DNA of 64,000 bases. Origin: Nitrospirota bacterium (GTDB taxonomy: Bacteria; Nitrospirota; Thermodesulfovibrionia; Thermodesulfovibrionales; UBA6898). The notes below the pieces were generated by a model. That model did no database searches. It was not told the origin of the DNA and worked only from the letters and a program-made list of their open reading frames with translations. A program made the translations under genes and the position numbers. Below, in pieces: positions 23,584-45,764 of the stretch (the stretch's first letter is position 1; each line of letters opens with the position of its first letter). The stretch covers positions 1 through 64,000 of the forward strand of contig JAJRYC010000004.1 in assembly GCA_024275975.1 (NCBI GenBank), in the 5' to 3' direction.

Positions 23584-23595
23584 AGGAGACTTCTG

Positions 23596-26600: not shown

Positions 26601-26616
26601 TCGGGAGGAGCAGAAT

Positions 26617-28099: not shown

Positions 28100-29424
28100 G
28101 TTTTGCAAATCCATATAATTTTGTAAAAATTGACAATGGTGTTGAAAGAAGTAATATTCACAACACTGTCTTTCACAATAAAATACAAGAAAATACTTAT
28201 ACAGGCGTTTTGAAATGCACTTTAAAAACCCTTACAAAAATATTTACTCCTTCAACTTTGCCGGAAGATATTGAAGAAAAAAATATCGGAAAAGATAAAA
28301 ATGGGCGCCCAAGGATACATTACATGTTTAAGTCTTTTTATTATCTTAAAAAAGACAAGCAAAAACAATATGCGATCCCAGGTTCATCTTTGAAGGGTGT
28401 TATTCGTTCTGTAGCAGAAGCGATTTCTAATTCGTGCATGCATGTATTTGACGGTAAATATAAAAATATTTCATACAAAAACAGTGATGCACTGCATAAG
28501 GATAGCTGTATCTTTATAGGTGAGCACGGCAACTTGGCCGAAGGAGTTTGTATTTGTTGCAGTATGTTTGGCATGGCTAATGCAAAAGATACAAAAAAGG
28601 CACCCGAATCAGAAAATAAATTACTTCCAAATGCTTTTAAAGGTAAAATGAGTTTTTCTGATGCTCTGCTACAAAGCACCCCATCATTTGAAACCATCTT
28701 CTCTTTAAAAGAGTTATCTTCTCCAAAACCATACCACAAAACTTTTTATGCAGATAGGCAAACAATTAAAGGTCGAAAGTTTTATTACCATCATTCTGAC
28801 CATGATGTAAAAGATTTGAAGGGTGAAGAAACCCACCGAAACCGTTCAGTCATCCCCTTAAAAAAAGATGCCCTGTTTGAATTTACCATCTCCTATGAGA
28901 ACCTTACAGAGGAAGAATATGGCCTTCTTCTTACAACCCTTGAACTTGAATCAGGACTGGCGCATAAAATTGGAATGGGAAAGCCTCTTGGGCTTGGTAG
29001 TTGCGAGATTGTGGTAACTGAGATAAGAGAATTTTCAAAGAATCGTTACCTGTCTATTTCTAATGCGAGTGCTTGCAAACTTTTCAGTAATGATGCCCTT
29101 AAAGAAAGAAAAGAGACGATAAAAGGTTTATGGGAAAATGGAATACCCAACGATTTGAAATGTATTCTCAGATTGAATAATGGGTTTACAGTGATAAGAT
29201 ACCCCAAAAAAGATACCCGCGACCAATCAAATGATGAATTTACCATATATAAAAATCTCCATCCACCGTGTAGCAGTTTCTCTGATGATGAAAAAACTGG
29301 AGAGGGCATAGTAGCATTTCATACACCGCAGATAAAGCCTGAAAAATCGCATAGAAAAAAGCCAAGCCATGCTGTAGGGAGCCTGGCAGACGTCTTCAAA
29401 GAGGCAATTAAAAATAAAAAGTAG
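28096..29424 (+). CDS. TIGR03986-like RAMP (Cas7 group), type III subunit 4
   Basis: A 442-residue RAMP starting NPYNFVKID, the usual opening of the TIGR03986 family found in type III loci. It has YAIPGSSLKGVIRSVAEAI (about residues 94-112), a Cys cluster CICCSMFG (about 152-159) equivalent to the CPxCxLFG motif of the other RAMPs, and GLAHKIGMGKPLGLGSCEI (about 290-308). A C-terminal extension is Lys/Ser-rich. It overlaps the Csx19-like gene by ATGA and is 7 bp from the CARF gene. Confidence 0.8.
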   Translation: MSFANPYNFVKIDNGVERSNIHNTVFHNKIQENTYTGVLKCTLKTLTKIFTPSTLPEDIEEKNIGKDKNGRPRIHYMFKSFYYLKKDKQKQYAIPGSSLKGVIRSVAEAISNSCMHVFDGKYKNISYKNSDALHKDSCIFIGEHGNLAEGVCICCSMFGMANAKDTKKAPESENKLLPNAFKGKMSFSDALLQSTPSFETIFSLKELSSPKPYHKTFYADRQTIKGRKFYYHHSDHDVKDLKGEETHRNRSVIPLKKDALFEFTISYENLTEEEYGLLLTTLELESGLAHKIGMGKPLGLGSCEIVVTEIREFSKNRYLSISNASACKLFSNDALKERKETIKGLWENGIPNDLKCILRLNNGFTVIRYPKKDTRDQSNDEFTIYKNLHPPCSSFSDDEKTGEGIVAFHTPQIKPEKSHRKKPSHAVGSLADVFKEAIKNKK

Positions 29425-29431
29425 GAGAAAA

Positions 29432-30121
29432 ATGTCTAAATTAATCATCACGACAGTCGGTACATCTACAATAAGCAACAAACTTTTTCCCGAAAGTTGT
29501 AACGTAGAAATCGAAGAATTAAAAAAAGGCAAAGTAATAAATAATTACAATAAAATTATTAATAAGACGGCTACTGCTCTCAAAAACGCGATTGACAACG
29601 ACCGCCCGAATAAACTTCTTTCAGCAGAGCTTGCATCACTGAGAGTATTCAAGCAAAGTCTTGGCATTTCAAAGGATGATACAATTGTCTTCTTTTCATC
29701 AGACTCCGAAGATGGCAGGTTCTGTGCTTCGGTGACCAACCAAGTTCTCAATGAACTTGGTTGGTGTAATGCTCCTGAGCCTGTCGTAATAGAAGGTTTA
29801 AAGACACGAAGAACAGGAAAAGAAGAAGATATATCAAAAAACTTTATGGATGCAGGCTTAAAGAAACTAAAGGAAGAGACAGAGCATATCCTTAGGGGCA
29901 AATTTTTTGATGAAAAATATTTCAACATTACTGGTGGGTTCAAGGCGACTATACCTTTTGTTACTATTCTTGCCTTTGAAAAGAGGATATCGCTTGTATA
30001 TTTGTATGAGGAGGATAGTGATTTGATAGTGATAGAACCACCAGATAATTTTAATTGCTCTTACGAAATGATGGTGAACAATATGACCCGCCGTATTCCA
30101 CGGCAGATATTGGCACTATGA
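29432..30121 (+). CDS. CARF-domain protein (cyclic oligoadenylate sensor or ring nuclease)
   Basis: A 229-residue single-domain protein of the CARF type. The start SKLIITTVGTSTI is the first strand and ligand loop, and YFNITGGFKATIPFVTILAF (about residues 167-186) is the typical NxTGGxK strand-helix of the APE2256/TIGR02619-like CARF group. No HEPN, PD-(D/E)xK or other effector domain is fused. Therefore it either reads cyclic oligoadenylate and passes the signal to the next gene product, or acts as a stand-alone ring nuclease that ends the signal. Its TGA overlaps the ATG of the membrane protein gene (ATGA), which favours a physical partnership. Confidence 0.85.
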   Translation: MSKLIITTVGTSTISNKLFPESCNVEIEELKKGKVINNYNKIINKTATALKNAIDNDRPNKLLSAELASLRVFKQSLGISKDDTIVFFSSDSEDGRFCASVTNQVLNELGWCNAPEPVVIEGLKTRRTGKEEDISKNFMDAGLKKLKEETEHILRGKFFDEKYFNITGGFKATIPFVTILAFEKRISLVYLYEEDSDLIVIEPPDNFNCSYEMMVNNMTRRIPRQILAL

Positions 30122-31164
30122 ATATATATGATAATATACAGAAAAAAGTTTACCAATGGCATTCTCAACATCCTGAGGGTATTGAAAGTTTTGTAGATAA
30201 TATAATTAGAGAGAGCAACAACGAGACAGTTCAGAAGCTGAATGATTTTGTTGATTATCTCACTATGTATGGTCTTAAGGATCATCTCCCCAACGCATAC
30301 ATTGACGCGAAATATCACTTAAAAGAAAAAGCGATTGAAAATCTTGATGCTTCCCCTGATGATAAAACAAAGGCCGCATTATATGATTGGCTAAAGATAT
30401 GTATAAATACTCAAAAAGATATAAATTACGATTTTTATTTTGAGAAAAACAACCTGAACAGAGAAGAAGAAGTAAAAACAATACTTTTTGGGAATGGCAA
30501 GCTGCGAAAAATCTTTAAGAACCGAGATTGGCAGATTCGCCTGAAGACCGTAGCGGACTGGTTTTTGAGAAGATACAACGGGGAAATAGCAAGAGACATA
30601 TTGAGATCTCACCAAAATTTTGACTGCTGGGACAATCTCAAGCTATTTTATCCACGTATGATAGTGGCAATAATCGTTGGGCTTTTAGCGTTGATGACAG
30701 GACAGGAGATTTGGGATCTGCCACATAACATTTCTGGTCGTATAACCGGAGTAATCTATGGCCCAATCGCAAAGTTTTGGGGATGGCATTTGTCAGATGC
30801 GTATAGTAATTTAGTAAGTCTTATCGGTTTATTAGTTATTGTTTTCTTTTTTTATGTGCTTTCTGTTCTATACTTGCGCTATGAATGCTACAACATAATA
30901 TTTGACACAAAAGCAGCTGGATGCAGGGCAAGAAAAGTGGGTGGACGAGGGTTATTTGCAAGTTTAATATTGTCGACCTTAATCTGTTATGCAATTGGAC
31001 CTATCTCGGGTACTAAAGAAGTAATGAATCCCGCTACATATTACAGTTGTCAGGCAGGTCTACCCGTTTTTAAAAATATCATTTTCTTTGCCTCTGCCGC
31101 CCTATTTATCGGTATCTTCATGCAGGTCTTCTGGGAGAAGGAAACAATTACGGAGCCGTTATAA
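30118..31164 (+). CDS. Four-helix membrane protein coupled to the CARF gene; candidate novel type III effector
   Basis: A 348-residue protein I do not recognise. Residues 1-180 are soluble, charged and helical (for example YDNIQKKVYQWHSQHPEGIE, LKTVADWFLRRYNGEIARDI). The C-terminal half has four hydrophobic segments at about 181-197, 232-255, 279-298 and 318-338, ending EKETITEPL. The ATG at 30118 overlaps the CARF stop, so both proteins are probably made in step. No nuclease or protease motif is visible. By analogy with Cam1, Csx23 and CorA-type effectors, which link cyclic oligoadenylates to membranes, it may form or gate a pore after CARF binding; that is inference. A relic of a second copy lies at 20585-20680. 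Confidence 0.75.
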   Translation: MNIYDNIQKKVYQWHSQHPEGIESFVDNIIRESNNETVQKLNDFVDYLTMYGLKDHLPNAYIDAKYHLKEKAIENLDASPDDKTKAALYDWLKICINTQKDINYDFYFEKNNLNREEEVKTILFGNGKLRKIFKNRDWQIRLKTVADWFLRRYNGEIARDILRSHQNFDCWDNLKLFYPRMIVAIIVGLLALMTGQEIWDLPHNISGRITGVIYGPIAKFWGWHLSDAYSNLVSLIGLLVIVFFFYVLSVLYLRYECYNIIFDTKAAGCRARKVGGRGLFASLILSTLICYAIGPISGTKEVMNPATYYSCQAGLPVFKNIIFFASAALFIGIFMQVFWEKETITEPL

Positions 31165-31233
31165 ACTCGATGTATAAAGTTAACCAACGGCTAAGAGGAG
31201 AGTTGCATAGTTAAAATCCATGCATCACAACCA

Positions 31234-32163
31234 ATGAGACATCAATCTATAATTCAGCCGGAGGCAAGTTATCTGAAAGAAAGCCTTTCAGTATTCAGCG
31301 CTTTAAAGGTTGAATTCACTCTATTCCCTCTTGAGACTATCCATCTCGGTCCTGACGAGGTTAAAGGTGATCGCTGGAGAGGTTGTTTTGGGGAGGCGTT
31401 AAGAAGACGTGCGTGTGCGTTCAGGTGGAAAGAAATCGACTGCAATAAATGCGATGTCAGAGGAGACTGTCTATATCACGGGTATTTTTTCATAGACAGG
31501 CCGCATCCTTATGTAATGCTCCCCGAGCTTGACGGCAAACGGGTATATAATACGGGGGAAAGGATGCTGCTTGAAATGGTGCTTATCGGAGCGGCAGCAG
31601 AGCATGTGGATAAGTTTGTAATGACTGTTGAAGAGATGGGCAGAATGGGTATAGGCGGCGGAAGAGGGAGATTTCGAGTGAACTCCGTGGTGGCAGAGGA
31701 CTCAATTGATGCTTCCGGGTTTTTTGAAGAAGAACCCCTGACTGTTGACCATTGCACCATTGAATTGCTTACCCCGCTCAAAATAAAAGAGGGGATAAAG
31801 GGGCTCAATTATTCCAATCTCTCTTTTGAGACCTTTTTCAGGCTTTTAATAAAAAGAATTATCAACCTTAACAACCTTTACTGCAATGGCAGGGGCTTTA
31901 ACAAGGAGCGGATTGAGCCTGAGAAACAAAACCTTTTTACGTTGGCCGGTGAGATTGAAACAAAAACATATACAGAATGGCGGGACTTCAATAGATTTTC
32001 CTCAAGACAACATAAGTCACTGAAAATTGGGGGACAAATAGGGATAATAAGGTATAATGGAGAAATAGGCCGGTTTTATCCATATCTTAAGATGGGCGAG
32101 GTGCTTGGGGTCGGGCAGCATACAACAAGCGGATTCGGAAGATACCGCATAAGTACCGCCTGA
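31234..32163 (+). CDS. cas6: Cas6-like pre-crRNA processing endoribonuclease
   Basis: A 309-residue RAMP-fold protein. The N-terminal half carries a cysteine cluster (CNKCDVRGDC, about residues 70-79), and the C-terminus ends with LKMGEVLGVGQHTTSGFGRYRI, the glycine-rich signature of the PF10040-type Cas6. It cleaves within repeats to release crRNAs by family knowledge; the likely substrate is the 35-bp-repeat array 230 bp downstream. The ATG at 31234 has no good ribosome-binding site; GAGGAGAG lies about 35 bp upstream, so the start may differ. Confidence 0.8.
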   Translation: MRHQSIIQPEASYLKESLSVFSALKVEFTLFPLETIHLGPDEVKGDRWRGCFGEALRRRACAFRWKEIDCNKCDVRGDCLYHGYFFIDRPHPYVMLPELDGKRVYNTGERMLLEMVLIGAAAEHVDKFVMTVEEMGRMGIGGGRGRFRVNSVVAEDSIDASGFFEEEPLTVDHCTIELLTPLKIKEGIKGLNYSNLSFETFFRLLIKRIINLNNLYCNGRGFNKERIEPEKQNLFTLAGEIETKTYTEWRDFNRFSSRQHKSLKIGGQIGIIRYNGEIGRFYPYLKMGEVLGVGQHTTSGFGRYRISTA

Positions 32164-32392
32164 GAAATACGGGTATAAGGTAAAAGTTTAACAATAGGCA
32201 AGTAACAGGGTAAGAATAAAGAGAAAAATCTTTATTTAAATGAATTGTCTCAGGCGGTCGTTGTAAACACAGGCTCTTTGACAACTTAAAAGCTGTTTTG
32301 TGGTATAATTTTCATGGTATGGGAAAGCAAAATGCTATTCAGGCGGAAACCATACTGTATAGGCTTATGTGTCAAGGCTTTACAGGGGGAGG
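32164..32392 (+). promoter_or_regulatory. Leader of the large CRISPR array with candidate promoter
   Basis: No gene seen. TTGACA at 32278-32283 and TATAAT at 32304-32309 are 20 bp apart, wide for a standard promoter, with TTGTGG just before the -10. GCTCTTTGA (32273-32281) is shared with the leader of the small array. The first repeat is at 32393. The array's leader-proximal end is on this side, judging from the degenerate last repeat. Confidence 0.5.
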
Positions 32393-34427
32393 CTTCCGAA
32401 GAGCCGTAGATAAGAGGCAACTGAAACAAATGAAGCTCCTTTATCTTTTTACAGAGCTGTTCGTTTCTTCCGAAGAGCCGTAGATAAGAGGCAACTGAAA
32501 CCTGTAATAGCGGCGTTATAGCTAACTATTAATGCCACTTCCGAAGAGCCGTAGATAAGAGGCAACTGAAACGCAAGGCAAGCGCCAAGCAGCACGGCTC
32601 AAAATCCTGTCTTCCGAAGAGCCGTAGATAAGAGGCAACTGAAACAAAGTTGTAGTCAATCAACCACTCGGTAATCTTCTTCTTCCGAAGAGCCGTAGAT
32701 AAGAGGCAACTGAAACTGGATCCGGGGGTTGGGTCTGAGACTCCAGACCCGGCTTCCGAAGAGCCGTAGATAAGAGGCAACTGAAACCATCGCTTTGTTT
32801 ATACTGGCGTATTCCAAAACATTCTTCCGAAGAGCCGTAGATAAGAGGCAACTGAAACTCGCGCCCGCCGCAATTACGGCTTCAATAACCTCGCAACTTC
32901 CGAAGAGCCGTAGATAAGAGGCAACTGAAACACTATATAAACCAACGCATTCAGCATGATCATTTCACTTCCGAAGAGCCGTAGATAAGAGGCAACTGAA
33001 ACTTCGCATTCGCAGCGTTCCCGCTGCTTCTGCTTACTCTTCCGAAGAGCCGTAGATAAGAGGCAACTGAAACCACGTTCTTTAGGATATCCTTGTTGAT
33101 TACCATCGCCTTCCGAAGAGCCGTAGATAAGAGGCAACTGAAACGGCACAACTTCCATGTCTTCGAAGTTAAACATTATTTTCTTCCGAAGAGCCGTAGA
33201 TAAGAGGCAACTGAAACCCATTACAAGGGCGATGATATAGGCAGTAAGTCCTATCTTCCGAAGAGCCGTAGATAAGAGGCAACTGAAACTTTTTTTTCTT
33301 CTACTTTGCCCCAGGCGGATTGCCTGCTTCCGAAGAGCCGTAGATAAGAGGCAACTGAAACAATTTCTTGAACTTTCCCTTCGCCGTCTCGTCGTCGGCT
33401 TCCGAAGAGCCGTAGATAAGAGGCAACTGAAACAGGCTAAATATCACCTGATGACCGATAGCGCACCTTTCTTCCGAAGAGCCGTAGATAAGAGGCAACT
33501 GAAACTTGGATCCGGGTCCGGTGTTGGGTCCGGAGTTGGATCCTTCCGAAGAGCCGTAGATAAGAGGCAACTGAAACCCAGGATAATGGCTCCATTTCGC
33601 ATCCCTGGGAATTTTCCTTCCGAAGAGCCGTAGATAAGAGGCAACTGAAACGGACGCTCCTATACTGTAAATTCCGTCCGCGTTTACCTTCCGAAGAGCC
33701 GTAGATAAGAGGCAACTGAAACTTGGATCCGGGTCCGGTGTTGGGTCCGGAGTTGGATCCTTCCGAAGAGCCGTAGATAAGAGGCAACTGAAACTTGCGG
33801 CGGGTTTATCATCCGCTGTCAGAACCTGAACTTCCGAAGAGCCGTAGATAAGAGGCAACTGAAACTTGCGCGCGCGCGTTGATATTTCTCTCCGTAGTCC
33901 CTTCCGAAGAGCCGTAGATAAGAGGCAACTGAAACTATACGACTCCGTTTACTCCATCCACTACGACACTCTTCCGAAGATCCGTAGATAAGAGGCAACT
34001 GAAACATATCGGCTGTGCCATATCCTTCTTCAATAATTTGCTTCCGAAGAGCCGTAGATAAGAGGCAACTGAAACAGTTAAACCTCCACCGTTCCTTCCG
34101 CGTTGCTCGTGGCTTCCGAAGAGCCGTAGATAAGAGGCAACTGAAACCGTGGGTATTTTGCTTCCCGGTGCTTCACCCTCTATTCTTCCGAAGAGCCGTA
34201 GATAAGAGGCAACTGAAACAAAGGACTCTTCGTAATAGCAAGGTATTACTACGCCTTCCGAAGAGCCGTAGATAAGAGGCAACTGAAACAAAAGATGAAG
34301 CGTGTATGAGCTGAACCCAGACATAGACTTCCGAAGAGCCGTAGATAAGAGGCAACTGAAACAAACACTTTTGATTTGTTTACCGTTTGGAAGTGTCTTC
34401 CGAAGAGCCGTAGATAAGAGGCAACTT
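32393..34427 (+). CRISPR. Large CRISPR array, 29 repeats of 35 bp, 28 spacers
   Basis: The repeat begins CTTCCGAAGAGCCGTAGATA and ends GCAACTGAAAC. Spacers are 34-39 bp. Starts run from 32393, 32467, 32538, 32611, 32682 ... to 34328 and 34397. The last repeat loses the GAAAC end. Repeat 23 (33971) has one change, G to T in GAAGAGCC. Spacers 16 (33506-33542) and 19 (33723-33759) are identical; spacer 5 (32717-32752) is related. The array lies between cas6 and the RT-Cas1 gene, which starts 31 bp after it. Confidence 0.99.
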
Positions 34428-34458
34428 TTAGCAAAAATCCTTTTGGGCGGAGGTACAT

Positions 34459-36528
34459 ATGAAACTTTTTGAGGAAATATGTTCTTATTCCAAGCTCCTT
34501 TCAGCCTTTGACAAGGTAGAGGAAAATGCCGGGGGCCCCGGAGTAGACAATGTCACCATAGAAGAGTTCTCCCTCTCCCTGAACGAAACGCTCATGTTTC
34601 TCAGGAAAGAACTTTTGGATGGTAGGTACAAACCTGTCGCATTGAGAAAAGTCGGCATACCAAAAGGTGACGGAAGTGTGCGGTGGCTGTCGATCCCGGC
34701 TGTCAGAGACCGTGTGGTTCAAACGTCCGCCTCAATGGTGCTTTCTCCAATTCTGGATCGGGAGTTTGAGGAGTGCAGTTTTGCGTACAGGAAAGGAAAG
34801 TCTGTAAAGAAGGCTATCCAAAAGATCGTCCATTACAGAGATAAAGGTTATTTATGGGTTGTAGATGCTGATATAACTTCATATTTTGATGAAATAAACC
34901 ACGAGCTCCTGTTAAAAGAGACCATGAAATATATAAATGATGAGAAGGTTATTCATTTGATAAATATGTGGCTAAAAGGAGACGTTGTGTATAAAGGACG
35001 CAGAACAAAACTGACAAAGGGCGTTCCTCAGGGCTCCCCTGTGTCTCCTCTCCTATCCAATCTTTACCTTGATGTTTTTGATGAGACATTAATGAAAACA
35101 AGGTATAAATATGTCAGGTTTGCAGACGACTTTATTATCCTGTGCAAGGACAGACCGGCCGCTGAAGATGCGATTGAACTTACAGAGGATGCCTTGAAAA
35201 AGCTGAGGCTGAGCCTTAATAATGATAAAACACGGCTTACCCACTTCAACAGTGGGTTTAAGTATCTTGGAGTGAAATTTTTACGATCAATGATTTTCAG
35301 GCCAATCTATGAAGATAAACTGGATATTGAGGAAGAGCCGGACGCCCCCCCAGCAATAGCAGAAAGGAGAAAGACAGGCATAACCCCTCCGCTACCGGAT
35401 TTGCCAGACACGGTGATGGCAGAAGCGTTCAAAGACGCGACAAAAGATGCGGAAGACGTTAATCTTGATTCGCTTTTTCAGGAAAAACCGGAGATAGAAC
35501 CGTCTGTCTCTAAAAATCCATTTTTGAGAACTCTTTATCTTTTAGAACAGGGCACTGTGCTTGCTAAGGAAGATGAACGGTTCAGGATATTGAAAGAGAA
35601 GGTAGAGATAAAGGTGGTTCCGGCTATAAAAGTCGACCAGATTCTTATTTTCGGAAATATCCAAATGACAACTCAGGCGATGAAGTTTTGTCTTGAAAAA
35701 GACATTCCGGTGATTCTCCTTTCAAGCAGAGGCAGATATTTCGGTGAGCTCAGCTCCTTTAAAATAACAAATGTCGCTTTGCATAAGAGGCAGTTTGAGA
35801 TAGCTGATAACGATGCATTGTCACTTGAAATAGGGAAGTCCATAGTAAAAGCAAAAATTAATAATTCAAAGGTTATAATCCAGAGATATGGCAGAAAGAG
35901 AGGACACCTGCATTTTGAATCGGAGGTGCAGCAAATGAACCTAATGCTTAACAAAGTCTCCAGAGTACTTATGCGTGATGAACTTATGGGAGTTGAAGGC
36001 GCGGCAGCTGCCCGGTATTTTTCTGCTCTAAGGACTTTGTTGGGTGACGGGTGGGATTTCAGGAAAAGACAGAAGCAGCCGCCGCCGGACCCTGTAAACA
36101 GTCTGCTGAGTTATGGATATACCCTGCTTTTTTATAATATTTATGCAATGGTCAGAATGCACGGCCTACATCCATATATCGGTTTTTTGCACATATTGAG
36201 GAATGGACATCCCGCTCTTGTATCCGATATACTTGAAGAGTTTAGAGCTCCGGTTGTGGATGCTACTGTGATCAGCCTGATCTTGAGGGGCAGCATTAAG
36301 CAAAAAGATTTCCTTTTGCCCGGTGATAGTGGTGCACCGTGTCTACTGACGGGTGATGCAAGAAAGATTTTTATAAGGGCCTTTGAAAGTAAAATGAACA
36401 GCTCTATTTCTCACGGTCCTACAGGATATCATGTTGATTACAGGAGGTGTATTGATCTTCAGGTGCAGGGACTAAGGAAGATGATTCAGGGGAACTTAAA
36501 TAAATATGAACCAATGTTGATTAAATAA
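34459..36528 (+). CDS. cas1: Reverse transcriptase-Cas1 fusion
   Basis: A 689-residue adaptation protein. Residues 1-280 are a group II intron-like reverse transcriptase: GIPKGDGSVRWLSIP, VVDADITSYFDEI (about 134-146), GVPQGSPVSPLLSNLYL and the catalytic FADD at 221-224. After a linker (about 285-350) comes Cas1, with GVEGAAAARYF (conserved Glu), a His-containing HGLHPYIGFLH helix and SDILEEFRAPVVD. All metal ligands look intact in both domains, so both activities are expected. Fusions of this kind acquire spacers from RNA in Marinomonas. There is no Cas6 domain at the N-terminus, since cas6 is separate. GGAGG lies 6 bp before the ATG. Confidence 0.95.
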   Translation: MKLFEEICSYSKLLSAFDKVEENAGGPGVDNVTIEEFSLSLNETLMFLRKELLDGRYKPVALRKVGIPKGDGSVRWLSIPAVRDRVVQTSASMVLSPILDREFEECSFAYRKGKSVKKAIQKIVHYRDKGYLWVVDADITSYFDEINHELLLKETMKYINDEKVIHLINMWLKGDVVYKGRRTKLTKGVPQGSPVSPLLSNLYLDVFDETLMKTRYKYVRFADDFIILCKDRPAAEDAIELTEDALKKLRLSLNNDKTRLTHFNSGFKYLGVKFLRSMIFRPIYEDKLDIEEEPDAPPAIAERRKTGITPPLPDLPDTVMAEAFKDATKDAEDVNLDSLFQEKPEIEPSVSKNPFLRTLYLLEQGTVLAKEDERFRILKEKVEIKVVPAIKVDQILIFGNIQMTTQAMKFCLEKDIPVILLSSRGRYFGELSSFKITNVALHKRQFEIADNDALSLEIGKSIVKAKINNSKVIIQRYGRKRGHLHFESEVQQMNLMLNKVSRVLMRDELMGVEGAAAARYFSALRTLLGDGWDFRKRQKQPPPDPVNSLLSYGYTLLFYNIYAMVRMHGLHPYIGFLHILRNGHPALVSDILEEFRAPVVDATVISLILRGSIKQKDFLLPGDSGAPCLLTGDARKIFIRAFESKMNSSISHGPTGYHVDYRRCIDLQVQGLRKMIQGNLNKYEPMLIK

Positions 36529-36530
36529 TT

Positions 36531-36806
36531 ATGTTTTACATGGTATGTTATGACATAAGTGATGATGGTCGCCGAAGAGAGGTCCAGAGAACCCTAAAGG
36601 GTTATGGAAAGAGAGTGCAGTATAGCGTGTTTGACTGTAATATATCGGATTTGCAATATAGACGACTCAGAGATGAAATCCTTTCCAGAATTGACAAAGA
36701 TTCGGATAGTGTCAGGTTTTATCCAATTTGCAATGCATGTGCTGGTAAAATCGAATATAGAGGGGCCGGAAATATAAGTGAAGACGAACGGTTTTTTATT
36801 GTATAG
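36531..36806 (+). CDS. cas2: Cas2 (first copy)
   Basis: A 91-residue Cas2 with a ferredoxin-like fold: MFYMVCYDISDDGRRREVQR at the start (Asp of the metal site), GKRVQYSVFDC, and SVRFYPICNAC. It follows RT-Cas1 by 2 bp. Cas2 bridges two Cas1 dimers during spacer integration. It carries a C-terminal extension (AGKIEYRGAGNISED) unlike the second Cas2. Confidence 0.93.
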   Translation: MFYMVCYDISDDGRRREVQRTLKGYGKRVQYSVFDCNISDLQYRRLRDEILSRIDKDSDSVRFYPICNACAGKIEYRGAGNISEDERFFIV

Positions 36807-36808
36807 CG

Positions 36809-37072
36809 ATGTTTATGGTTATAACCTACGATATTATAGATGATAAAAGAAGAGAGAAGGTTGCCTCTGAAATGCAAAATTATGGGATGAGGGTTCAGAA
36901 GAGTATATTTGAGTGCTATCTTGACTATGATCAAATTGATACACTGAAAGCATCTCTTGAAACTATGATTGATATCACCACCGACCATATCAGATTTTAT
37001 TATCTATGCAAAAAAGACCAGAGTAAAACAGCAGTTGAAGGTGTGCAGCTTATTTACAGAAATAACGACTAG
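36809..37072 (+). CDS. cas2: Cas2 (second, divergent copy)
   Basis: An 87-residue Cas2: FMVITYDIIDDKRREKVASE, GMRVQKSIFECYLD, HIRFYYLCKKD. It is 2 bp after the first Cas2 but clearly different in sequence, so the pair is not a recent duplication. Two Cas2 genes behind one Cas1 suggest either a heterodimer or one subunit specialised for the RT-containing complex. Confidence 0.92.
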   Translation: MFMVITYDIIDDKRREKVASEMQNYGMRVQKSIFECYLDYDQIDTLKASLETMIDITTDHIRFYYLCKKDQSKTAVEGVQLIYRNND

Positions 37073-37124
37073 TTTATGATTTAATCGGTTAAATTGTTAC
37101 AATCTTTTTTAAGGGGATTTATGC

Positions 37125-39644
37125 ATGGGGACTAAGGTCAGACCATATATTCATACCACTAAAAAATCGGGCATATGGAATTCCTTCTTCGCCGTCAGGC
37201 TGGGTTCCGTCACCGTGTTTGACCCATCCTCCGGAGACTACAGGGACTTTGCCTTCAAGCTGCTGAACCGGCAGATAGACTTCATCAACAGCCTTGACTG
37301 CCCGGAGGACGGCAGGGTCTTTGAGCTGAGATTCATATGCCGGCCTGACAGCTCATTACACTTAAGAGGCAGGATTGATATTGTCATGATCGTGATGGTA
37401 TCCGATACCGAAAAGAACTTATCTCTCATAAAGGCCGGGGATATTTTTCATGACATATGGTCCATGCTTGCCGCAATATCCGATCACTATGAATTTGAAT
37501 GTATAACGACCAGGGATGATTTTCTGTCGGTTTATGCCCCCTTCCCTGTCCGGGAAATCGTTGAAATTAGCAGGAGAGAGGACATTATCGAAGTCGAAAC
37601 TGCAAAAAGACTGAGGGGTTTTGGAGCGGATAAGGAATTATATGGCAGTGACAAAAACAGGATATATTTTGTCTATCCCTTTATCTGGAGCGTTAATTCC
37701 CTTGCAAGGCTGTTCAGCGTTATGCTGTTCCAGGACGCCCCATGTTTCTTAAGTATATCTTTAAAGCCTGTTGACTTTAGCGGTGAAATTGAACAATTTT
37801 TTGAGAAGCAGATTGACCTGTGCGAAAGATATCTTGCTTCGGACTCACAGGCGAGATCACCCGTCAATGCAAGGATTGAGTTCATCACAAAGACACTCCA
37901 GAGTCAGCTTTTAAGGCTTGAAGACTCACCGTTTCTGATGAAAATCAGGATCGCCTCCAATGGAAAAGTCCAGCGTGCTTTGATAGATTCCTTTGGCGTG
38001 GAGATTACGGAACATGCGGGGTCTCCCGATCTCATCAAAGACTCTAATGACGCCTACGTCTTCTCGGGCGGGTATGACTGGCGCTGCTTCAGTGGTGAAA
38101 GGGAGAAGAGAAAAGAGCTGGATAACCTGAAACATATGCAGTTCGGTCATTACGCCGGGACACTGGCGGATAAAACTGACAGACATGTCAGGTATCTCTT
38201 TGACGCAAACCAGGCCAATTGCGCCTTCAGATTTCCCCTGCCCAGGGCCGACGAATTGCCCGGTATAGAGACCAGATTTTACAGGAAAGTGCTCCCCCCA
38301 CCGGATGTTCCCGCAGAAGGGATTATAATCGGGAAGAATGTTATCCATGGACAATCCCATTATATCCGGCAGTCTGAAGACGACAGGCGGAGGCATACAT
38401 ACGTGGTGGGACAGACCGGAACGGGCAAGTCAACCCTGTTTCTGAATATGGTCCTTCAGGATATTGAAAATAACAAAGGGGTGGCTGTGATCGACCCGCA
38501 CGGCGAGCTGATCAGCGAAATAATGCCGAGGGTGCCGAAGCATAGAATAGACGACGTTGTATATGTAAACTTCGGGGACATAGAAAATCCCGTTGCATTC
38601 AATATGCTTGAATACGGGGATGAGCTTGAGAAGGATTTTGTGGTTAATCAAATGTTCGAGATATTCGCCAAGCTCTATGATTTACAACAGACCGGCGGAC
38701 CAATGTTTGAGCAATACATGAAGAACGCCCTGCTTCTCATCATGGATGACCCGGATTCCGGATCGACGCTCCTTGAAGTGCAGAAGGTCTTCGCGGAGCC
38801 TGAATTCAGGAAGTATAAACTCTCAAGGTGCCGGAACAGATATGTCCTGGAGTTCTGGGAAGGCATTGCCCGGAGCGCCGGGGGAGAATCGTCTCTTGAG
38901 AATATGGCGCCATACATAGTAAGCAAGCTCTCAATGTTTATATACAACAATACCATGCGTAATATCATCTCATCACAGAGGTCATCTATAGATATGAGAC
39001 AGGTTATGGACGACGGAAAGATCCTTCTTGTCGATCTCTGCAAGGGTAAGCTCGGCAATACTAACAGCCATTTTCTCGGGATGATTCTCGTCTACAGGAT
39101 TTTGATGGCCGCCCTCGGCAGAAGAGATGTAAAAGACAAGGATAAACTGAAGGATTTCTACCTTTATGTTGACGAGTTCCAGAACCTTGCCACGGACAGC
39201 TTCATCTCCATTCTATCTGAAGCAAGGAAATACAGGCTGAGCGCCATCCTTACCAACCAGTATTTAACGCAGGTCCCGCCGGAAGTCCAGAGCGCCATCA
39301 CCGGCAATGTCGGCACGATCATGAGCTTCAGGGTGGGGATGGCGGATGCCGGGGTGCTGGAAAGGGAATTTTATCCGGTGTTTACAAAATCCGACCTGAT
39401 GAATCTGCCCAACTGGAGGGTATGTGTCAGTATGCTCGCAAGGGGTGAAGCTTTAAGACCATTTGGCATGCAGACACTGAATGTGGTGTCACAAAAGAAT
39501 GCCCTGACGGCAAAGAAGATAAGGGCGCTTTCAGGGAAGAGATATGGACGGAGACCGAAAGAGATTGAAAGAGAGATATCAGCACGATGGAATCGCCCGA
39601 AAACGTCCATGGAACAGATTAAGAAATTGCTGAAAGAAGATTAG
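37125..39644 (+). CDS. VirD4/TraG/HerA-like ATPase next to the adaptation genes
   Basis: An 839-residue protein. The first ~410 residues have no recognised domain. The C-terminal half is an FtsK/VirD4-type motor with Walker A GQTGTGKST (about 428-436), GVAVIDPHGELISEI, a Walker B-like FYLYVDEFQN (about 678-687) and the sensor-like LTNQYLTQVPPEV. These are features of coupling proteins of conjugation systems and related DNA pumps. No transmembrane anchor, relaxase or mating-pair gene is nearby. The next gene starts at the base after its TAG. GC content is closer to the host core than the cas genes are. Function unknown; DNA translocation is inferred. Confidence 0.75.
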   Translation: MGTKVRPYIHTTKKSGIWNSFFAVRLGSVTVFDPSSGDYRDFAFKLLNRQIDFINSLDCPEDGRVFELRFICRPDSSLHLRGRIDIVMIVMVSDTEKNLSLIKAGDIFHDIWSMLAAISDHYEFECITTRDDFLSVYAPFPVREIVEISRREDIIEVETAKRLRGFGADKELYGSDKNRIYFVYPFIWSVNSLARLFSVMLFQDAPCFLSISLKPVDFSGEIEQFFEKQIDLCERYLASDSQARSPVNARIEFITKTLQSQLLRLEDSPFLMKIRIASNGKVQRALIDSFGVEITEHAGSPDLIKDSNDAYVFSGGYDWRCFSGEREKRKELDNLKHMQFGHYAGTLADKTDRHVRYLFDANQANCAFRFPLPRADELPGIETRFYRKVLPPPDVPAEGIIIGKNVIHGQSHYIRQSEDDRRRHTYVVGQTGTGKSTLFLNMVLQDIENNKGVAVIDPHGELISEIMPRVPKHRIDDVVYVNFGDIENPVAFNMLEYGDELEKDFVVNQMFEIFAKLYDLQQTGGPMFEQYMKNALLLIMDDPDSGSTLLEVQKVFAEPEFRKYKLSRCRNRYVLEFWEGIARSAGGESSLENMAPYIVSKLSMFIYNNTMRNIISSQRSSIDMRQVMDDGKILLVDLCKGKLGNTNSHFLGMILVYRILMAALGRRDVKDKDKLKDFYLYVDEFQNLATDSFISILSEARKYRLSAILTNQYLTQVPPEVQSAITGNVGTIMSFRVGMADAGVLEREFYPVFTKSDLMNLPNWRVCVSMLARGEALRPFGMQTLNVVSQKNALTAKKIRALSGKRYGRRPKEIEREISARWNRPKTSMEQIKKLLKED

Positions 39645-40640
39645 ATGCAGACGCTTAATGACGAAGAACTGGCCATGCTCATCAGGGAAGAAGACTCACT
39701 GACGGCCTTTAAGGAACTCTTAAGGCGGTACACGCCTGTTATTTACAGCATTGCCGGGAGTATATTTTATTCCGGCAACATTCAGCACGCGACAAAGCAT
39801 GAGGCGATCCTTGACGGTGAAAGCGCTTTAGGGCTCGCCATTATACATTATGACCGGAATGAAGGGAGCTTCAGGGGGTATGCTGTAAGGTGCATTCAGG
39901 GTGCCGTTAAAAACTACGTCAACGGAAACAGATCACTCGTAAAACCCCTCGCGTTGCAGCGAAGACTCCAGACAGTGAAATCAGCAATCAGGGCAGTGAC
40001 AGACGGGACAACCTCTGATATTGATATACCCAGGGTCAAATCATGGCTAATGCAAAACTATCCGGACGAGGCTGTATACTGGAATAAATCCCTCGACGGC
40101 TATATCATCGATGTTTCCGATGTCCGTGATGACATGGCCATTGACGCCCTAACTAAAAACGGCATGAGTCTTCACGAAGTAGTAACGGATGGCAAGGCGA
40201 CCGATGGATCGATTGAAAGAAGGGATTCGGCGGTCGAGATTTCGGGGATATTAATGGATGCGTGGCTTGATGTAACCAGGAAAGAGATAATAAAAGGTAA
40301 CAAAAGGGGACTTAAAATTTTATACAGGTACTATGTAAAGGGTGACTCCGCTGCAGAGATTATACATTGGCTTGAAGGTTTGGGACTTAATGGATGCGTC
40401 CTTTTCAGGCAGGCCAAAAGCAGGGGGTTCGGGAACTTATGTAAAAAATATAAGCTGATATTCAGGAATATGGTTGCTCATATTAATAGAACTTTCGATC
40501 ACGTTTTTATAGCTGAAAAGGCGGAAAGTTTCTGTGATGAACTCAAGGTTTTTCTCCAGACACTTGCGGACACCGGAATTCTGACAGAGGGTTATAATGC
40601 ACAATCCTTAAAAGAAGAGACAGGAAAGAAAAAAAGTTGA
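39645..40640 (+). CDS. Sigma-70 region 2-like protein
   Basis: A 331-residue protein. LTAFKELLRRYTPVIYSIAG and EAILDGESALGLAIIHYDRN followed by FRGYAVRCIQGAVKNYV (about residues 20-95) resemble sigma region 2 (core-binding and -10 melting helices). The later part (about 210-275) is helical with a possible region-4-like segment, much less clear. It may be a dedicated sigma factor or a derived DNA-binding protein. It abuts the ATPase gene with no gap and overlaps the HEAT gene, so the three form one operon. Confidence 0.6.
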   Translation: MQTLNDEELAMLIREEDSLTAFKELLRRYTPVIYSIAGSIFYSGNIQHATKHEAILDGESALGLAIIHYDRNEGSFRGYAVRCIQGAVKNYVNGNRSLVKPLALQRRLQTVKSAIRAVTDGTTSDIDIPRVKSWLMQNYPDEAVYWNKSLDGYIIDVSDVRDDMAIDALTKNGMSLHEVVTDGKATDGSIERRDSAVEISGILMDAWLDVTRKEIIKGNKRGLKILYRYYVKGDSAAEIIHWLEGLGLNGCVLFRQAKSRGFGNLCKKYKLIFRNMVAHINRTFDHVFIAEKAESFCDELKVFLQTLADTGILTEGYNAQSLKEETGKKKS

Positions 40641-41253
40641 ACAAATTAAAGATATCATCCTTGAGAACTTTGAGAGGGCGAAGGAAGAGAGGGAAGAAAT
40701 CATCCGCACATCTGCTGAAGTCCTTAAGATTGGGGATGAAGACGCGAGGTGGATGGCCGTCGGAGTCCTTGCCGAGACCGGAGATAAAAGAATTATTCAG
40801 CCCCTGATCACCGCGCTCTCGTCCGACCCGTCGCCCCGGGTTCGGGCGGAAGCCGCCGGTATGCTCGGGGACTGGAGGGACATGGCAAGGCCCTTTGACT
40901 CCCTGATTAAAGCAATTGAAGACCCGTCCGGACTTGTCGGAAACAGGGCGTTTGAAGCTCTTGACAGTATCACTGTTTTAGAGAAGGAGACAGGAAAACA
41001 CGAAAGCGCTGACAGTGAATACATAGTCCATGTAGAAAAACCGGACAGTGAAACAGAAACAAGGTTCACATTCTTTATCAAAAAGAACAAAAAAATGCAG
41101 AGGCTCAGACAAAAGGCCTTTGTCCTCCTGTGCCCTGACGGACATATTAAAGGTAAAACAGATACCAGGGGCTGCGCAGTGTTCAGTAATGAAAAGCTCC
41201 GGGAGGCAGGATATAGAGACGGCGTCGGCAATATCCGTTTTGTGTTGAGATAA
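40597..41253 (+). CDS. HEAT-repeat protein, with an apparent early stop codon
   Basis: ATG at 40597 has AGAGGG 6 bp upstream and reads MHNP, then TAA (40609-40611). The same frame then stays open (KKRQERKKVEQIKDIILE...) to 41253. The frame after the stop looks coding well before the next ATG at 40753, so I favour a 218-codon gene with one bad codon; a start at 40753 would give 166 residues. HEAT-like repeats are visible (ARWMAVGVLAETGDKRIIQP, RAEAAGMLGDWRDMARPFDS), followed by a beta-rich tail (TRFTFFIKKNKKMQ, CPDGHIKGKTDTRG). It is a likely interaction partner of the ATPase and sigma-like proteins. Confidence 0.6.
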
Positions 41254-41340
41254 ATCCCTTACCTGACTCCGCTCCTTTCCGTAAGACCGGGTATGTCAGG
41301 CGCTTTCCCCTCTATCAAGCTTATCCTTACCCACATTTTT

Positions 41341-41743
41341 GACTGGACACCGGGGGCTCTTTTTTTGGCTTTAACGCTCTGCGCTATGCCTTTCATTCAT
41401 TCCCCTTTGATTATTTTAGGGATGATTCCGAGGCTGAACGCGTTAAGAATTCAAGACTGTTTGAGCTTTTTTTTCGTCCTTAGTCCGTTACGCTATGCGC
41501 TTTGCTCTCTGCGCTATGCTTTTTTATCGGGCAGACCGGAAGCAGACCGTTAAAAAATAATCGCGGGGCGCATTTTCTTGGTTCCGTTCTTTATGTCTTT
41601 GTTCTTGCTATGCGCTTTGCGCTATGCGTCTTTATCCGTTGCGCTGTTGCTTCTTAAAGAACCGGGGGAAGGGGCGGAGTCCCATTTAATCAGATAACTC
41701 CTTGAACTACCTGTTTACCGGATAACTCCCACGGTGTCCAGTC
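41341..41743 (+). repeat. Right copy of the long direct repeat, flanked by 12-bp inverted repeats
   Basis: 41355-41730 is nearly identical to 21206-21568. GACTGGACACCG (41341-41352) and its exact reverse complement CGGTGTCCAGTC (41732-41743) bracket this copy, and CCACA/TGTGG extends the match after a 5-bp gap on each side. This looks like the ends of a small non-autonomous element. No transposase gene is inside. The left copy lacks the inverted repeats. Confidence 0.85.
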
Positions 41744-42060
41744 TTATTTGTGGAACATGGTAAGGCTATCAAGAGGGGATTAAGGGGTGTGTTCCTTTCC
41801 TTATTTCCTTCTGTTACCCCGGAATTTATTCAGAAAACCTGTCTGCCTGCAATTTCTGCTACTTAACCAGCCAGTAACGCTGCATTTATTTACCCGTTTA
41901 ATGACGACCGGTCTGACCTTTGAGCAAAACAATATGCTTCCGACCGAACCGCTTCTTTCACCTGGTTAACTTTTCCGTCACAAAAAAAAGAATCTGTTTT
42001 ATTAAGAGGTTATTGAGGAGTTGCATTAAAAATCTTTTTAGAATGGAGGAGATAAAATCA
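41744..42060 (+). other. Intergenic stretch without a gene
   Basis: No convincing gene. A short frame with ATG at 42043 or 42061 (GGAGGAG upstream; MTERKKPAIAGLR from the second ATG) ends at TGA 42100-42102, overlapping the start of the XRE gene as ATGA, so a leader peptide coupled to that gene is possible. Confidence 0.4.
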
Positions 42061-42098
42061 ATGACAGAGAGGAAAAAACCTGCTATAGCGGGTTTAAG

Positions 42099-42479
42099 AT
42101 GAGAAACAATCATTTATATAATTACATTCAAATAGAAGAGGAAGATGATGATAATAAGGGGCTCATGCTTGAAGGTTTCGCTAAAAACCTGAGAAAGATA
42201 CGAACAGATAAGAGGCTTACGCAGGAGCAGTTGGGTGCTCTTGCGAATATAAATTATAAGTACCTCGGGGAACTCGAACGGAATATTAAATCAGCGTCCG
42301 GAACTGTAATTTACAAACTTTCCCGTGCTCTTGGTGTGCCGGTCTGTGAACTCCTGTCAACAGACTGCTGTCCAATGACAAAGCGTGAATTTTTTAAAGG
42401 CTTTGAAAGACTTCTCAAAGGGAAGGAAAAGGGTGATGTGGAGAAGGCGATCAGGATTCTGGAGGTGTTTTTTGGGTAA
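42099..42479 (+). CDS. XRE-family helix-turn-helix regulator
   Basis: A 126-residue protein with a Cro/CI-type HTH at about residues 28-85: NLRKIRTDKRLTQEQLGALA, then INYKYLGELERNIKSASGTV and IYKLSRALGVPVCELL. A helical tail follows. The family binds DNA as dimers and often controls mobile or toxin loci. Its target is unknown; the large lipoprotein gene downstream is the closest candidate. Start ATG 42099 is in ATGA overlap with a tiny upstream frame; translation could also start at a later in-frame ATG. Confidence 0.85.
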   Translation: MRNNHLYNYIQIEEEDDDNKGLMLEGFAKNLRKIRTDKRLTQEQLGALANINYKYLGELERNIKSASGTVIYKLSRALGVPVCELLSTDCCPMTKREFFKGFERLLKGKEKGDVEKAIRILEVFFG

Positions 42480-42619
42480 AAAAGGAGGGTTTGCACTGGT
42501 TGTTGATTACAGGATCGGGAACGAAGTGAATGCACTTGAGTTTTCACTGGAGACGCTGAAAGGGCTTCATGTCGCGCCAATAGCCGGAAAAGAGGACCGA
42601 AAAAAGAGGAGGAGGAATC

Positions 42620-44863
42620 ATGAGCAAAAATCTGAAAGTTTTGACAGGGGTGTTGCTGATCGCCCTATTCGCGGTATATCTGACCGCATGTGGTGGAAGT
42701 AGTAGTGGAGGAGAGGGAGGAGGGAGTGGGGTCAACGGGGGCGGTGCGCCACTTCCTCCTCCACCAACAAAGCTGATTAGCGGCACGATTAATCTTCCAG
42801 CCGACAGTCTGATCGACCCTGAGGAGCTTACTGTACGGGCAATTACCGGAAATACATCTGTCAACAATATCGGTGTTTTTGCAAACCTTGAAGCTGTTAA
42901 TGAGGGACTTGGTCAGGTTGTTTTTGTAGAGAATGCAGACGGCAATGCTATAGCTGTTGCGTATATCTCGGCAGACGATATAGCCGGTGGGAACATCACG
43001 ATCGGTTATGAAGAAATGGCACTTGGGCTGATAAAGCTCAATCCTTACCTGATGGTTTTAAGTCCTGAACAGGAATCGCTTGTATTGGACAAGGCCCGTG
43101 ACCATGCAGATTTTTTCGGTCTTGTTACGGATATTGAGAACGCCTTAACGAATTCGCCGGATAATGCTCTTGATTATGAAAGTTATCCCTACATTTACCA
43201 GAAGGCCGTCAGTATCGGGATCGAGGTAATCGCCGGCTATAGTGGAAGCACGCAATCTATTACGAGCTCCGCTTATACTAATTTGGCTGCTGCCGTAGGC
43301 TCTGATTATGATCCGCATATTGAAGATCCTTCAGGCCCTGATATCACGCTGGTAAATCCGAAACAGACGTTCTATGGCGTCGACCTGGGGAATGGGGAGA
43401 AGACGCTGTTAAATGGGCGTGGCGGAGTTTTGACAACAGATATTGGCTGGAGTCCACCCTGGGAGTGGGTCACAACCACAACTCCATACGAAAAGGATTG
43501 GAATCTCGGAGATGGCACATTTCAGATTACATTCTACAAAGGATTTAATATACCGGAAGACGGATGGTTACTTCCGGAAACAGCCGCCGGAAAAGCAACT
43601 TACGCAAATTTTCTGAAGATGTTCGGTATGCTGATGAAAACGGTTGGGTTGTTTCCGGGCTTTGAGGCAGTTTCAATCATTGCACCAAGTGACTCATCAA
43701 TACAATTCTTACTTACCGTTGATAACATTCCGGTTCTCGATTTTTCCGAAATAGCGGGGGCAATTACTGGAAGCGTCAACTGGAGGCAGCTGCTATTGCA
43801 AAACCTGCCGGATTTCATAGGCAATCATTGGGATGATATTTCGTACTGGGTATGGCAGGGGGGTACCATTTGGACATCAGACCCGGAGATATTGAGGAAT
43901 GTTTCGGATTTTATGCGCGATATTGGAAAGGCATTCAACGGTATCCACCGGGCCCTCCCAGTGGCAAACCAGCTTCTTACCGTTCTGGAGGCCGAGAACC
44001 AATGGATTCCATTTTTTTACGATCTCGTTACTGCCCCATCGAAACTTGAATATACCATCAGCCAAACAGATGGAATTGTAACAGAAGTTTTCTCTCTGAT
44101 TCCTCCAACGGCATTATTTACAGTCGATAACACAAACCCCATAATCAGTGAAGACGTAAACTTCAATGCTTCCGGTTCGTCCGATGATTATGATTCTTCC
44201 GAATCTTTACAAGTTCGCTGGGATTTGGATGGGGATGGAGCATGGGAGACCTCTTGGTCAACGGATAAGTATGTCTCCTATTCTTATCCAGGCCGAGGGA
44301 CTTATTGTCCAATTCTGGAAGTCAGGGATTCTGACGGGCTTATGGCAAGGAGTTCCCTTGACATTGTGGTTGGGTCGCAACAAGCCCTTAAAATTGTGCT
44401 GACCTGGGGCAATGAGCCGACAGACCTTGACTCCCATCTGTACACGCCAGAGATAGAAGGTTCCAACTACCACATTTATTACGTTGACAAAGGTTCACTG
44501 GAATCACCACCCTATGCATGGCTGGACATTGACGATACAAGCAGTTACGGGCCTGAGACAATCTGGTTTGAACGTCTTTTTACTGACACATATACATACT
44601 CTGTCTACAATTACTCAGGTGTACCGGATATTACAACATCGAGTGCACATGTAGAGGTGATCGACGCACAGGGTGTAATCGCAGCATTCGATGTGCCGGT
44701 GATAGGTTCCGGCAGATGGTGGAATGTATTTACATTAGATGGAACTACCGGCGAGATTGCGCGGATAAACACTATTTCCGACAATGGAACTGTTTCTTCC
44801 TCTGCACAGGCTCTCACGCAAAGCACCGGACCTGACGATCCAATGCCACCCAAAGAATATTGA
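42620..44863 (+). CDS. Large lipoprotein with PKD and DUF2135-like domains
   Basis: A 747-residue secreted lipoprotein. The signal peptide ends in lipobox LTAC with Cys at residue 25, followed by a Gly/Ser/Pro-rich linker. The middle is unrecognised. A PKD domain spans about 497-585 (VNFNASGSSDD, WDLDGDGAWETSW, SYSYPGRGTYCPILEV). A C-terminal domain of DUF2135/YfaP type follows (IVLTWGNEPTDLDSHLYTPE, TSSYGPETIWFERLFTDTYT). It probably sits on the outer membrane or cell surface. GAGGAGGAGG precedes the ATG. Confidence 0.8.
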   Translation: MSKNLKVLTGVLLIALFAVYLTACGGSSSGGEGGGSGVNGGGAPLPPPPTKLISGTINLPADSLIDPEELTVRAITGNTSVNNIGVFANLEAVNEGLGQVVFVENADGNAIAVAYISADDIAGGNITIGYEEMALGLIKLNPYLMVLSPEQESLVLDKARDHADFFGLVTDIENALTNSPDNALDYESYPYIYQKAVSIGIEVIAGYSGSTQSITSSAYTNLAAAVGSDYDPHIEDPSGPDITLVNPKQTFYGVDLGNGEKTLLNGRGGVLTTDIGWSPPWEWVTTTTPYEKDWNLGDGTFQITFYKGFNIPEDGWLLPETAAGKATYANFLKMFGMLMKTVGLFPGFEAVSIIAPSDSSIQFLLTVDNIPVLDFSEIAGAITGSVNWRQLLLQNLPDFIGNHWDDISYWVWQGGTIWTSDPEILRNVSDFMRDIGKAFNGIHRALPVANQLLTVLEAENQWIPFFYDLVTAPSKLEYTISQTDGIVTEVFSLIPPTALFTVDNTNPIISEDVNFNASGSSDDYDSSESLQVRWDLDGDGAWETSWSTDKYVSYSYPGRGTYCPILEVRDSDGLMARSSLDIVVGSQQALKIVLTWGNEPTDLDSHLYTPEIEGSNYHIYYVDKGSLESPPYAWLDIDDTSSYGPETIWFERLFTDTYTYSVYNYSGVPDITTSSAHVEVIDAQGVIAAFDVPVIGSGRWWNVFTLDGTTGEIARINTISDNGTVSSSAQALTQSTGPDDPMPPKEY

Positions 44864-44872
44864 CTCACACGA

Positions 44873-44891
44873 GGGCGGGACAACCCCGCCC
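44873..44891 (+). repeat. GC-rich hairpin after the lipoprotein gene
   Basis: GGGCGGG (44873-44879) pairs with CCCGCCC (44885-44891) around a 5-base loop. No T-run follows, so it is more likely a dispersed palindromic element than an intrinsic terminator. Confidence 0.55.
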
Positions 44892-44970
44892 CTACGTGCA
44901 AAGAAACAACACTAATTCTATTATCGTCATAGGGTGCCTGGTCTTTTGAGCGGGAATCAGTGTTCTGCAA

Positions 44971-44998
44971 TTGCCAGGGATGAAAAATTTGTTATACT
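44971..44998 (+). promoter_or_regulatory. Candidate promoter of the TumA/TumE-type pair
   Basis: TTGCCA at 44971-44976 and TATACT at 44993-44998 (with an extended TGT) are 16 bp apart, 27 bp before the antitoxin ATG. Confidence 0.5.
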
Positions 44999-45025
44999 AA
45001 ACAAAACAAACAGGAGGTGATTAAA

Positions 45026-45295
45026 ATGAAACTTGCTGATTTGCTTCCGGAAAAAGAAATAAAAGAGGCTGTCCTGAGTGAGTATGAAAAACGGCTTACT
45101 TTATTCAAGCTCACCGATGAAAAATTCAGGAAAAAATATGGTATGAGTTTTAAAGAATTTGAGGAAAAAAACCTTGTAGCAGAGAAGGGATTTTCCTGTG
45201 ATGTTGAACAGGACTCCATGAACTGGGAACACGCTGTAGAAGGCATAAGGTATCTTGAAGAAAAAATAAAGAAAATTAAAAAAATGAGTGAATGA
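45026..45295 (+). CDS. TumA-like antitoxin
   Basis: An 89-residue charged, helical protein (KLADLLPEKEIKEAVLSEYE, FRKKYGMSFKEFEEKNLVAE). I infer an antitoxin role from size, composition and the adjoining DUF6516/TumE-like frame, which it overlaps by ATGA. ATG at 45026 is preferred to GTG at 45017 because AGGAGG lies 8 bp upstream. Confidence 0.6.
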   Translation: MKLADLLPEKEIKEAVLSEYEKRLTLFKLTDEKFRKKYGMSFKEFEEKNLVAEKGFSCDVEQDSMNWEHAVEGIRYLEEKIKKIKKMSE

Positions 45296-45550
45296 TAAAA
45301 GTTGAAAAAGTAGCTCAGACCATAAAAGATATTACTGACAGATATGGCATAAAACTATTGGAGATAGACCATACGGGCATCACCTTAATTGCACGGATTG
45401 GTTTTTTCTCGTGAGGTTTTTGTACAGATTTACGCCAATGAGACAAAAGAAAAGCTGAATATAGCTCTTGTGGTTGCTGGTGAAAGAGTATACGGAATAG
45501 ATAAAGAAGGCGGCTTTTATCATGAACATCCATGGGATGTTGAACGTTGA
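45292..45550 (+). pseudogene. TumE-like (DUF6516) toxin, frameshifted in a T-run
   Basis: The first frame reads MIKVEKVAQTIKDITDRYGI to ARIGF and stops at a TGA near 45413. The second frame continues REVFVQIYANETKEKLNIAL, ERVYGIDKEGGFYHEHPWDV to the TGA at 45548-45550. Removing one T from the TTTTTT run at about 45403 joins them into a normal 85-residue toxin. The conserved YxNE-x-Y/LN-x-AL and RVYG-x-D-x-GG-x-HxHP pattern is that of the family. Confidence 0.65.
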
Positions 45551-45753
45551 ACTTACTTTTATGCAGATAAGTGCTGAAACTACCTGTTTACCGGCTAACT
45601 CCCCCAGCCCCTCTTAACCCTAAGAGGGGAGTAGTCTCCCCCTTTATATCGCGGAGCCCATTTAAGCAGGTAACTGCGGGGTATTCAGGTTCATTTCTTC
45701 ATATGCCTCTGTTTTTTCTGCCCTATTTAATAAAATATTTCGATAAAATCTGT
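45551..45753 (+). repeat. Intergenic stretch with dispersed repeats before RNase J
   Basis: No gene seen. CGTTGAACTTACTTTTATGC AGATAAGTGCTG and TAACTCCCCCAGCC repeat the sequence at about 18233-18290. The repeat begins inside the last codons of the TumE-like toxin. Confidence 0.55.
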
Positions 45754-45759
45754 TATACT
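45751..45759 (+). promoter_or_regulatory. Extended -10 element next to the RNase J start
   Basis: TGTTATACT ends at 45759, five bases before the first ATG at 45765. There is no ribosome-binding site, so the transcript would be leaderless or nearly so. No -35 match is evident. Confidence 0.4.
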
Positions 45760-45764
45760 CTGCA

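Follow-up and report, generated by a model that had tools for sequence, protein, structure and literature searches.

A VirD4/HerA-clade ATPase, a sigma-70-family homologue and a HEAT-repeat protein encoded as a three-gene unit in a variable defence island of a Nitrospirota bacterium

The 64,000-nucleotide stretch of DNA from a Nitrospirota bacterium analysed here (the window) carries a gene for an ATPase resembling the coupling proteins of conjugation, which is followed on the forward strand by genes for a sigma-like and a HEAT-repeat protein. The question that arises is what such a DNA motor might do in this company, the initial annotation having considered a self-contained DNA-processing or defence module or, alternatively, a remnant derived from conjugation.

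Gene layout and protein families

Gene 1 (37125..39644) encodes a VirD4/HerA-clade ATPase of 839 amino acids, recognised by Pfam, NCBIfam, PHROG and PADLOC matches, AF2 prediction with Foldseek comparison and sequence motifs. Gene 2 (39645..40640), a sigma-70-family homologue of 331 amino acids in the window identified by TIGR02937, FliA, Foldseek and DNA alignment, begins, as annotated, with an ATG at the base right after the TAG of gene 1. Gene 3, in its ancestral frame (40597..41253), encodes HEAT repeats recognised by HEAT_2 and a C-terminal tail. The start of gene 3 inside gene 2, which had been noted for the window, is found in the relatives L002 (G363, Bacterium BMS3Bbin07) and L003 (G320, Nitrospirota MAG M_MetaBat.107), where the two genes overlap by 14 nt, but not as a working start in the window itself. 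There the conserved ATG at 40597, identical in position to the start in both relatives by DNA alignment, is retained, but a single base at the ancestral stop of gene 2 (40608-40610) has changed TGA to TTA. The same T prolongs gene 2 by 10 codons and gives rise to an in-frame TAA (40609..40611, a sense codon in L002 and L003) at codon 5 of gene 3, beyond which the next ATG, at 40753, lies outside gene 2. Judged from the alignment, gene 3 of the window is probably damaged, or else the change is an error of the metagenome-assembled genome (MAG). That a frameshift at an A7 run fuses genes 2 and 3 was considered and rejected, the relatives having an ordinary overlap and the difference being a point change. 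Ratios of dN/dS of about 0.12 for gene 1, 0.24 for gene 2 and 0.15-0.25 for gene 3 indicate constraint, and genes 1 to 3 almost certainly form one operon.

The assignment of gene 1 as an ATPase is borne out by matches to DUF87 (3.5e-6), TrwB (1.7e-5) and T4SS-DNA_transf (3.4e-5), all above the Pfam cut-offs; against the VirD4-like NCBIfam models (conju_CD1115) it stays below the cut-off, with 50 of 250 bits. The motor (residues ~396-825) has both Walker motifs intact (Walker A GQTGTGKST at ~429, Walker B YLYVDEF at ~680), matches phrog_5156 (1e-55) and is predicted by AF2 with a pLDDT of mostly 80-95; Foldseek retrieves with it TrwB (E ~1e-13), CagBeta, HerA, SIR2/HerA anti-phage complexes and DotL, and PADLOC returns weak matches to mad8 (7e-14) and to HerA models. 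The N-terminal half (residues 1-390), on the other hand, is as unrecognised as initially described, with no match in the libraries, PHROGs included, and no meaningful one in the PDB, although it is conserved like the motor (76-86% identity between the window and three other genomes); its AF2 prediction (pLDDT <50) is too poor for a detailed reading. The absence of a membrane anchor is equally upheld, the maximal Kyte-Doolittle value in the first 78 residues being 0.78 as compared to 2.4-3.2 in relatives from Patescibacteria.

A weak similarity of the N-terminal half in the same register has been found to a free-standing ATPase of genome G011 (1.9e-5 at Z=1, the best of 340 shuffled decoys reaching 5e-4, in local-alignment and HMM tests), which suggests an old architecture in common; hhalign between N-terminal halves returned nothing. 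Contig C9 of G011 (L033-L035) carries three of the four VirD4-like ATPase relatives of this genome together with restriction-type genes, a sigma-like/zinc-finger-like pair and integrase-like genes, and this ATPase region likely represents one or more mobile elements.

The sigma-like nature of gene 2 is supported by TIGR02937 (best 9.4e-8) and Sigma70_r2 (best 1.1e-5), with three of three members matching sigma-70 models, by a match to FliA (0.0035) and by a PDB profile search returning sigma factors only. Foldseek with the structure model, which is of low confidence and too poor for detail (pLDDT 52), likewise lists sigma-factor and holoenzyme entries at the top. Over region 2 the homology to sigma factors is firmly established, and a region 4 is hinted at by the sequence pattern and the same low-confidence model. 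In our reading of the alignment, the core-binding signature D-L-x-Q of region 2.2 is altered, the three proteins having L, L and D at the Q position. The HEAT repeats of gene 3 are also confirmed (HEAT_2 at 5e-9 in the window and 1e-14 in L003), and its profile matches HEAT and alphaRep structures; the tail of about 80 residues after the repeats we read as beta-rich.

Distribution, transfer and island context

The N-terminal profile of gene 1 identifies exactly 4 of 396 sampled Nitrospirota genomes (G000, G305, G320 and G363), and the profile of gene 2 three of these (G000, G320 and G363), the only other match being an 84-residue partial (1.5e-4). In the fourth, G305 (L055), codons 1 to ~378 of gene 1 run directly into the final ~10 codons of gene 3; this junction marks the copy, on the strength of its sequence, as the deletion scar of a formerly full unit. 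In this sample of four genomes with unit or scar, the survey finds the three genes together wherever any of them occurs, once in the form of the scar. When 84,980 species genomes were scanned for patterns of close relatives, the N-terminal half of gene 1 was recovered only in L002 and L003. Cargo of a virus or plasmid as the origin of the unit has been rejected, since scans of viral contigs found no relative and gene 2 is absent from phage and plasmid records.

Lesions are present in three of the four copies, namely the stop in gene 3 of the window, a one-base frameshift in gene 1 of G320 and the deletion in G305, and could reflect dispensability or MAG errors. The G320 change is a one-base deletion within a G run at ~1295 of L003, which splits the gene and represents either a lesion or an assembly error.

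The unit has not followed the descent of its hosts. Gene 1 is 86% identical between the window and G363 (dS 0.66), as opposed to 62% for LeuRS and 70% for RNase J with saturated dS, whereas G320 and G363, two members of one genus, share 85-88% in LeuRS and RNase J but only 76-79% in gene 1. As this identity pattern contradicts that of the housekeeping genes, the unit is concluded to have been horizontally transferred, and these sequence comparisons show it as a horizontally mobile, co-inherited operon. Elsewhere in the window, a segment of 270 bp that contains a small ORF (44978-45244; L055 1-266) is 91% identical across two families, with neighbouring genes at about 70-78%, which suggests a recent exchange.

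Comparison with an empty site delimits a variable chromosomal defence island of 30.7 kb (15033..45764, no strand assigned) between the genes for ornithine carbamoyltransferase (argF) and RNase J, which are adjacent in G320. The island contains an MNT/HepT-like pair, a HEPN protein, two CRISPR arrays, type III-D effectors, a CARF protein, Cas6, RT-Cas1 with two Cas2, the three-gene unit, an HTH gene and a PKD protein. The type III-D locus (22159-31164) includes, besides the CARF protein, a gene for 369 amino acids (30055-31164) with a conserved counterpart in G216 (38%), and within one array a 107-nt piece of CRISPR sequence that contains a spacer occurs as an exact duplicate (33471-33577 and 33688-33794). 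CRISPR spacers gave only short chance matches to the unit. The XRE-type HTH regulator (42099..42479, forward strand; HTH_3 5e-11) has counterparts in G320 (69%) and G305 (71%), in both of which it is the downstream partner of the unit or the scar. Between gene 3 and this HTH gene, or in G305 between scar and HTH gene, the relatives encode a small hydrophobic protein without a Pfam family (L003 4545-4925, L055 1842-2132), which was not found in the window.

The initial picture of a repeat-bracketed element had to be dropped. The presumed bracket (21194-21567 and 41343-41760) belongs to a repeat that is dispersed through the genome, with 69 matches spread across many contigs, and does not mark element ends; intergenic members of this family are seen in the window at 17000-22000, 41343-41760 and 45558-45633.

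The ATPase and the question of conjugation

Tested as a coupling protein, gene 1 shows the VirD4/TrwB-type P-loop motor and lacks the N-terminal anchor. A search of the whole genome (96.9% complete) for VirB4 with TIGR00929 yielded only a 35-position match below the cut-off (1.7e-4), no relaxase was detected among the island proteins scanned, and the lack of mating-pair partners described at the outset holds for the island. Because there is no VirB4 in the genome, no anchor and no mating-pair partner in the island, it is very unlikely that gene 1 acts as a standard coupling protein. The proposed conjugation-derived remnant holds in part as regards ancestry: the motor resembles VirD4/TraG and has distant relatives that reside on plasmids beside genes for PrgI, an ATP-binding protein in VirB4 position and Replic_Relax. 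The self-contained module, on the other hand, is well supported by the co-occurrence of the three genes, one case being a scar, in a setting without VirB4.

A modified version is that gene 1 is an orphan, a conjugative coupling protein that has been exapted or survives as a relict of an integrative element and that, regulated by the sigma and HEAT genes, helps to mobilise in trans either the island or some other element. Its ATPase domain has relatives (about 21-35% identity) on plasmids, some with the conjugation-type neighbours just named, the ATPase relative in G011, a genome of the same family, adjoins HTH and integrase-like genes, and relatives with 38-48% identity occur in Patescibacteria, a group in which orphan VirD4 homologues are abundant and mostly located away from virB4 (PMC12102498). 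This version is nevertheless unlikely given the absence of VirB4 and of a membrane anchor, an N-terminal half that is distinct and strongly constrained, and steady companions that are the sigma and HEAT genes and, among the island proteins scanned, not a relaxase.

Possible functions and relation to known systems

The operon might alternatively be a sigma/anti-sigma regulon, in which gene 2 is a functional alternative sigma factor that the HEAT protein keeps bound, the ATPase gene being no more than its main target. Sigma/anti-sigma pairs are typically translationally coupled, and all three members match sigma models; with the altered region 2.2 signature, the low-confidence model of gene 2 and a region 4 that is not established, this explanation is improbable.

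Least probable is an accessory role in RT-Cas1/Cas2 adaptation, in which spacer acquisition would rely on the motor to feed or clear DNA: the RT-Cas1 and two Cas2 genes (34459..37072, forward strand, by Pfam) lie directly upstream of the unit in the window, where gene 1 starts about 50 nt past the second Cas2 with no convincing terminator between them, and equally by synteny in G305 from a different family, but the linkage, as initially perceived, fails in G363, where L002 has no cas gene within 236 bp upstream, the RT-Cas1 loci of G216, G341, G133 and G204 are without the unit, and the two have separate histories, since the nearest relative of the RT-Cas1 of the window is in G216 (84%) and that of the unit in G363. 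The upstream neighbours of the G320 copy fall outside the sequence, as the L003 contig begins inside gene 1.

The best reading is a cytosolic DNA-translocase module for defence or element maintenance. Among non-conjugative uses defence fits best because of the island content, the transfer, the patchy occurrence and the precedent of HerA/FtsK translocases, which anchor known anti-invader capture systems (PMC12839542). Support comes from the motor fold near TrwB, HerA and the SIR2/HerA anti-phage complexes and from the weak PADLOC matches, and the defence role put forward initially agrees with the MNT/HepT, HEPN, type III-D and RT-Cas1 genes nearby, an agreement that is no demonstration. Against it stand the lack of a nuclease, NADase or other effector domain in the three proteins by Pfam, NCBIfam and PADLOC, the lesions in three of four copies, an island location that is not proof and the small number of four. 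A HerA/FtsK-type cytosolic anti-invader module without a recognised nuclease is favoured tentatively, a little short of probable.

By analogy with TrwB and HerA, the gene 1 ATPase would assemble as a ring that pumps DNA. The sigma-like protein, via promoter DNA or RNA polymerase, may take the ATPase to the DNA of an invader or mobile element, or it may instead set the timing of operon expression; it could also simply be a transcription regulator. The HEAT protein may serve as a coupled adaptor or as an inhibitor in the manner of an anti-sigma factor. Most likely, incoming DNA would be blocked, remodelled or excluded as the outcome. That the unit represents a novel anti-invader class, in which the sigma-like protein guides a VirD4/HerA-type pump to foreign DNA, at its promoters or at RNA polymerase there, and the HEAT protein acts as trigger, is a speculative extension with a low chance of being correct.

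Known systems share parts of the unit. VirD4/TraG-type coupling proteins (TrwB, CagBeta, DotL; conju_CD1115) have the same motor fold and Walker motifs, but gene 1 differs by the lack of an anchor, a genome without VirB4, another N-terminal half of ~390 amino acids and scores far below the family cut-offs. The orphan VirD4-like ATPases of Patescibacteria (PMC12102498) and phrog_5156 are 38-48% identical in the motor domain and similar in total length; the Patescibacteria ATPases, unlike gene 1, possess an N-terminal transmembrane segment, and among their listed neighbours no sigma or HEAT partner is recognisable by eye. HerA/FtsK anti-invader systems (SIR2-HerA, HerA-DUF4297 and the capture systems in PMC12839542) likewise place a HerA-type motor in a defence island, whereas for the unit no nuclease, NADase or methyltransferase partner was found and its partners are sigma-like and HEAT proteins. 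Gene 2 has in common with FliA/SigB/SigI-type sigma factors the region-2 homology and, in its low-confidence model, an all-helical sigma-like fold, but stays far below the equivalog cut-offs, has an altered core-binding motif and, in every genome where it was seen, follows the ATPase gene.

No literature on a combination of ATPase, sigma-like and HEAT proteins was found, and a small transferable operon that pairs a conjugation-type DNA motor with a homologue of sigma factors is absent from the family libraries and literature searched. If the motor and the sigma-like protein act together, DNA pumping would be targeted through transcription. Equally, what appear at the sequence level to be coupling proteins in genomes without a type IV secretion system (T4SS) can be part of other machinery.
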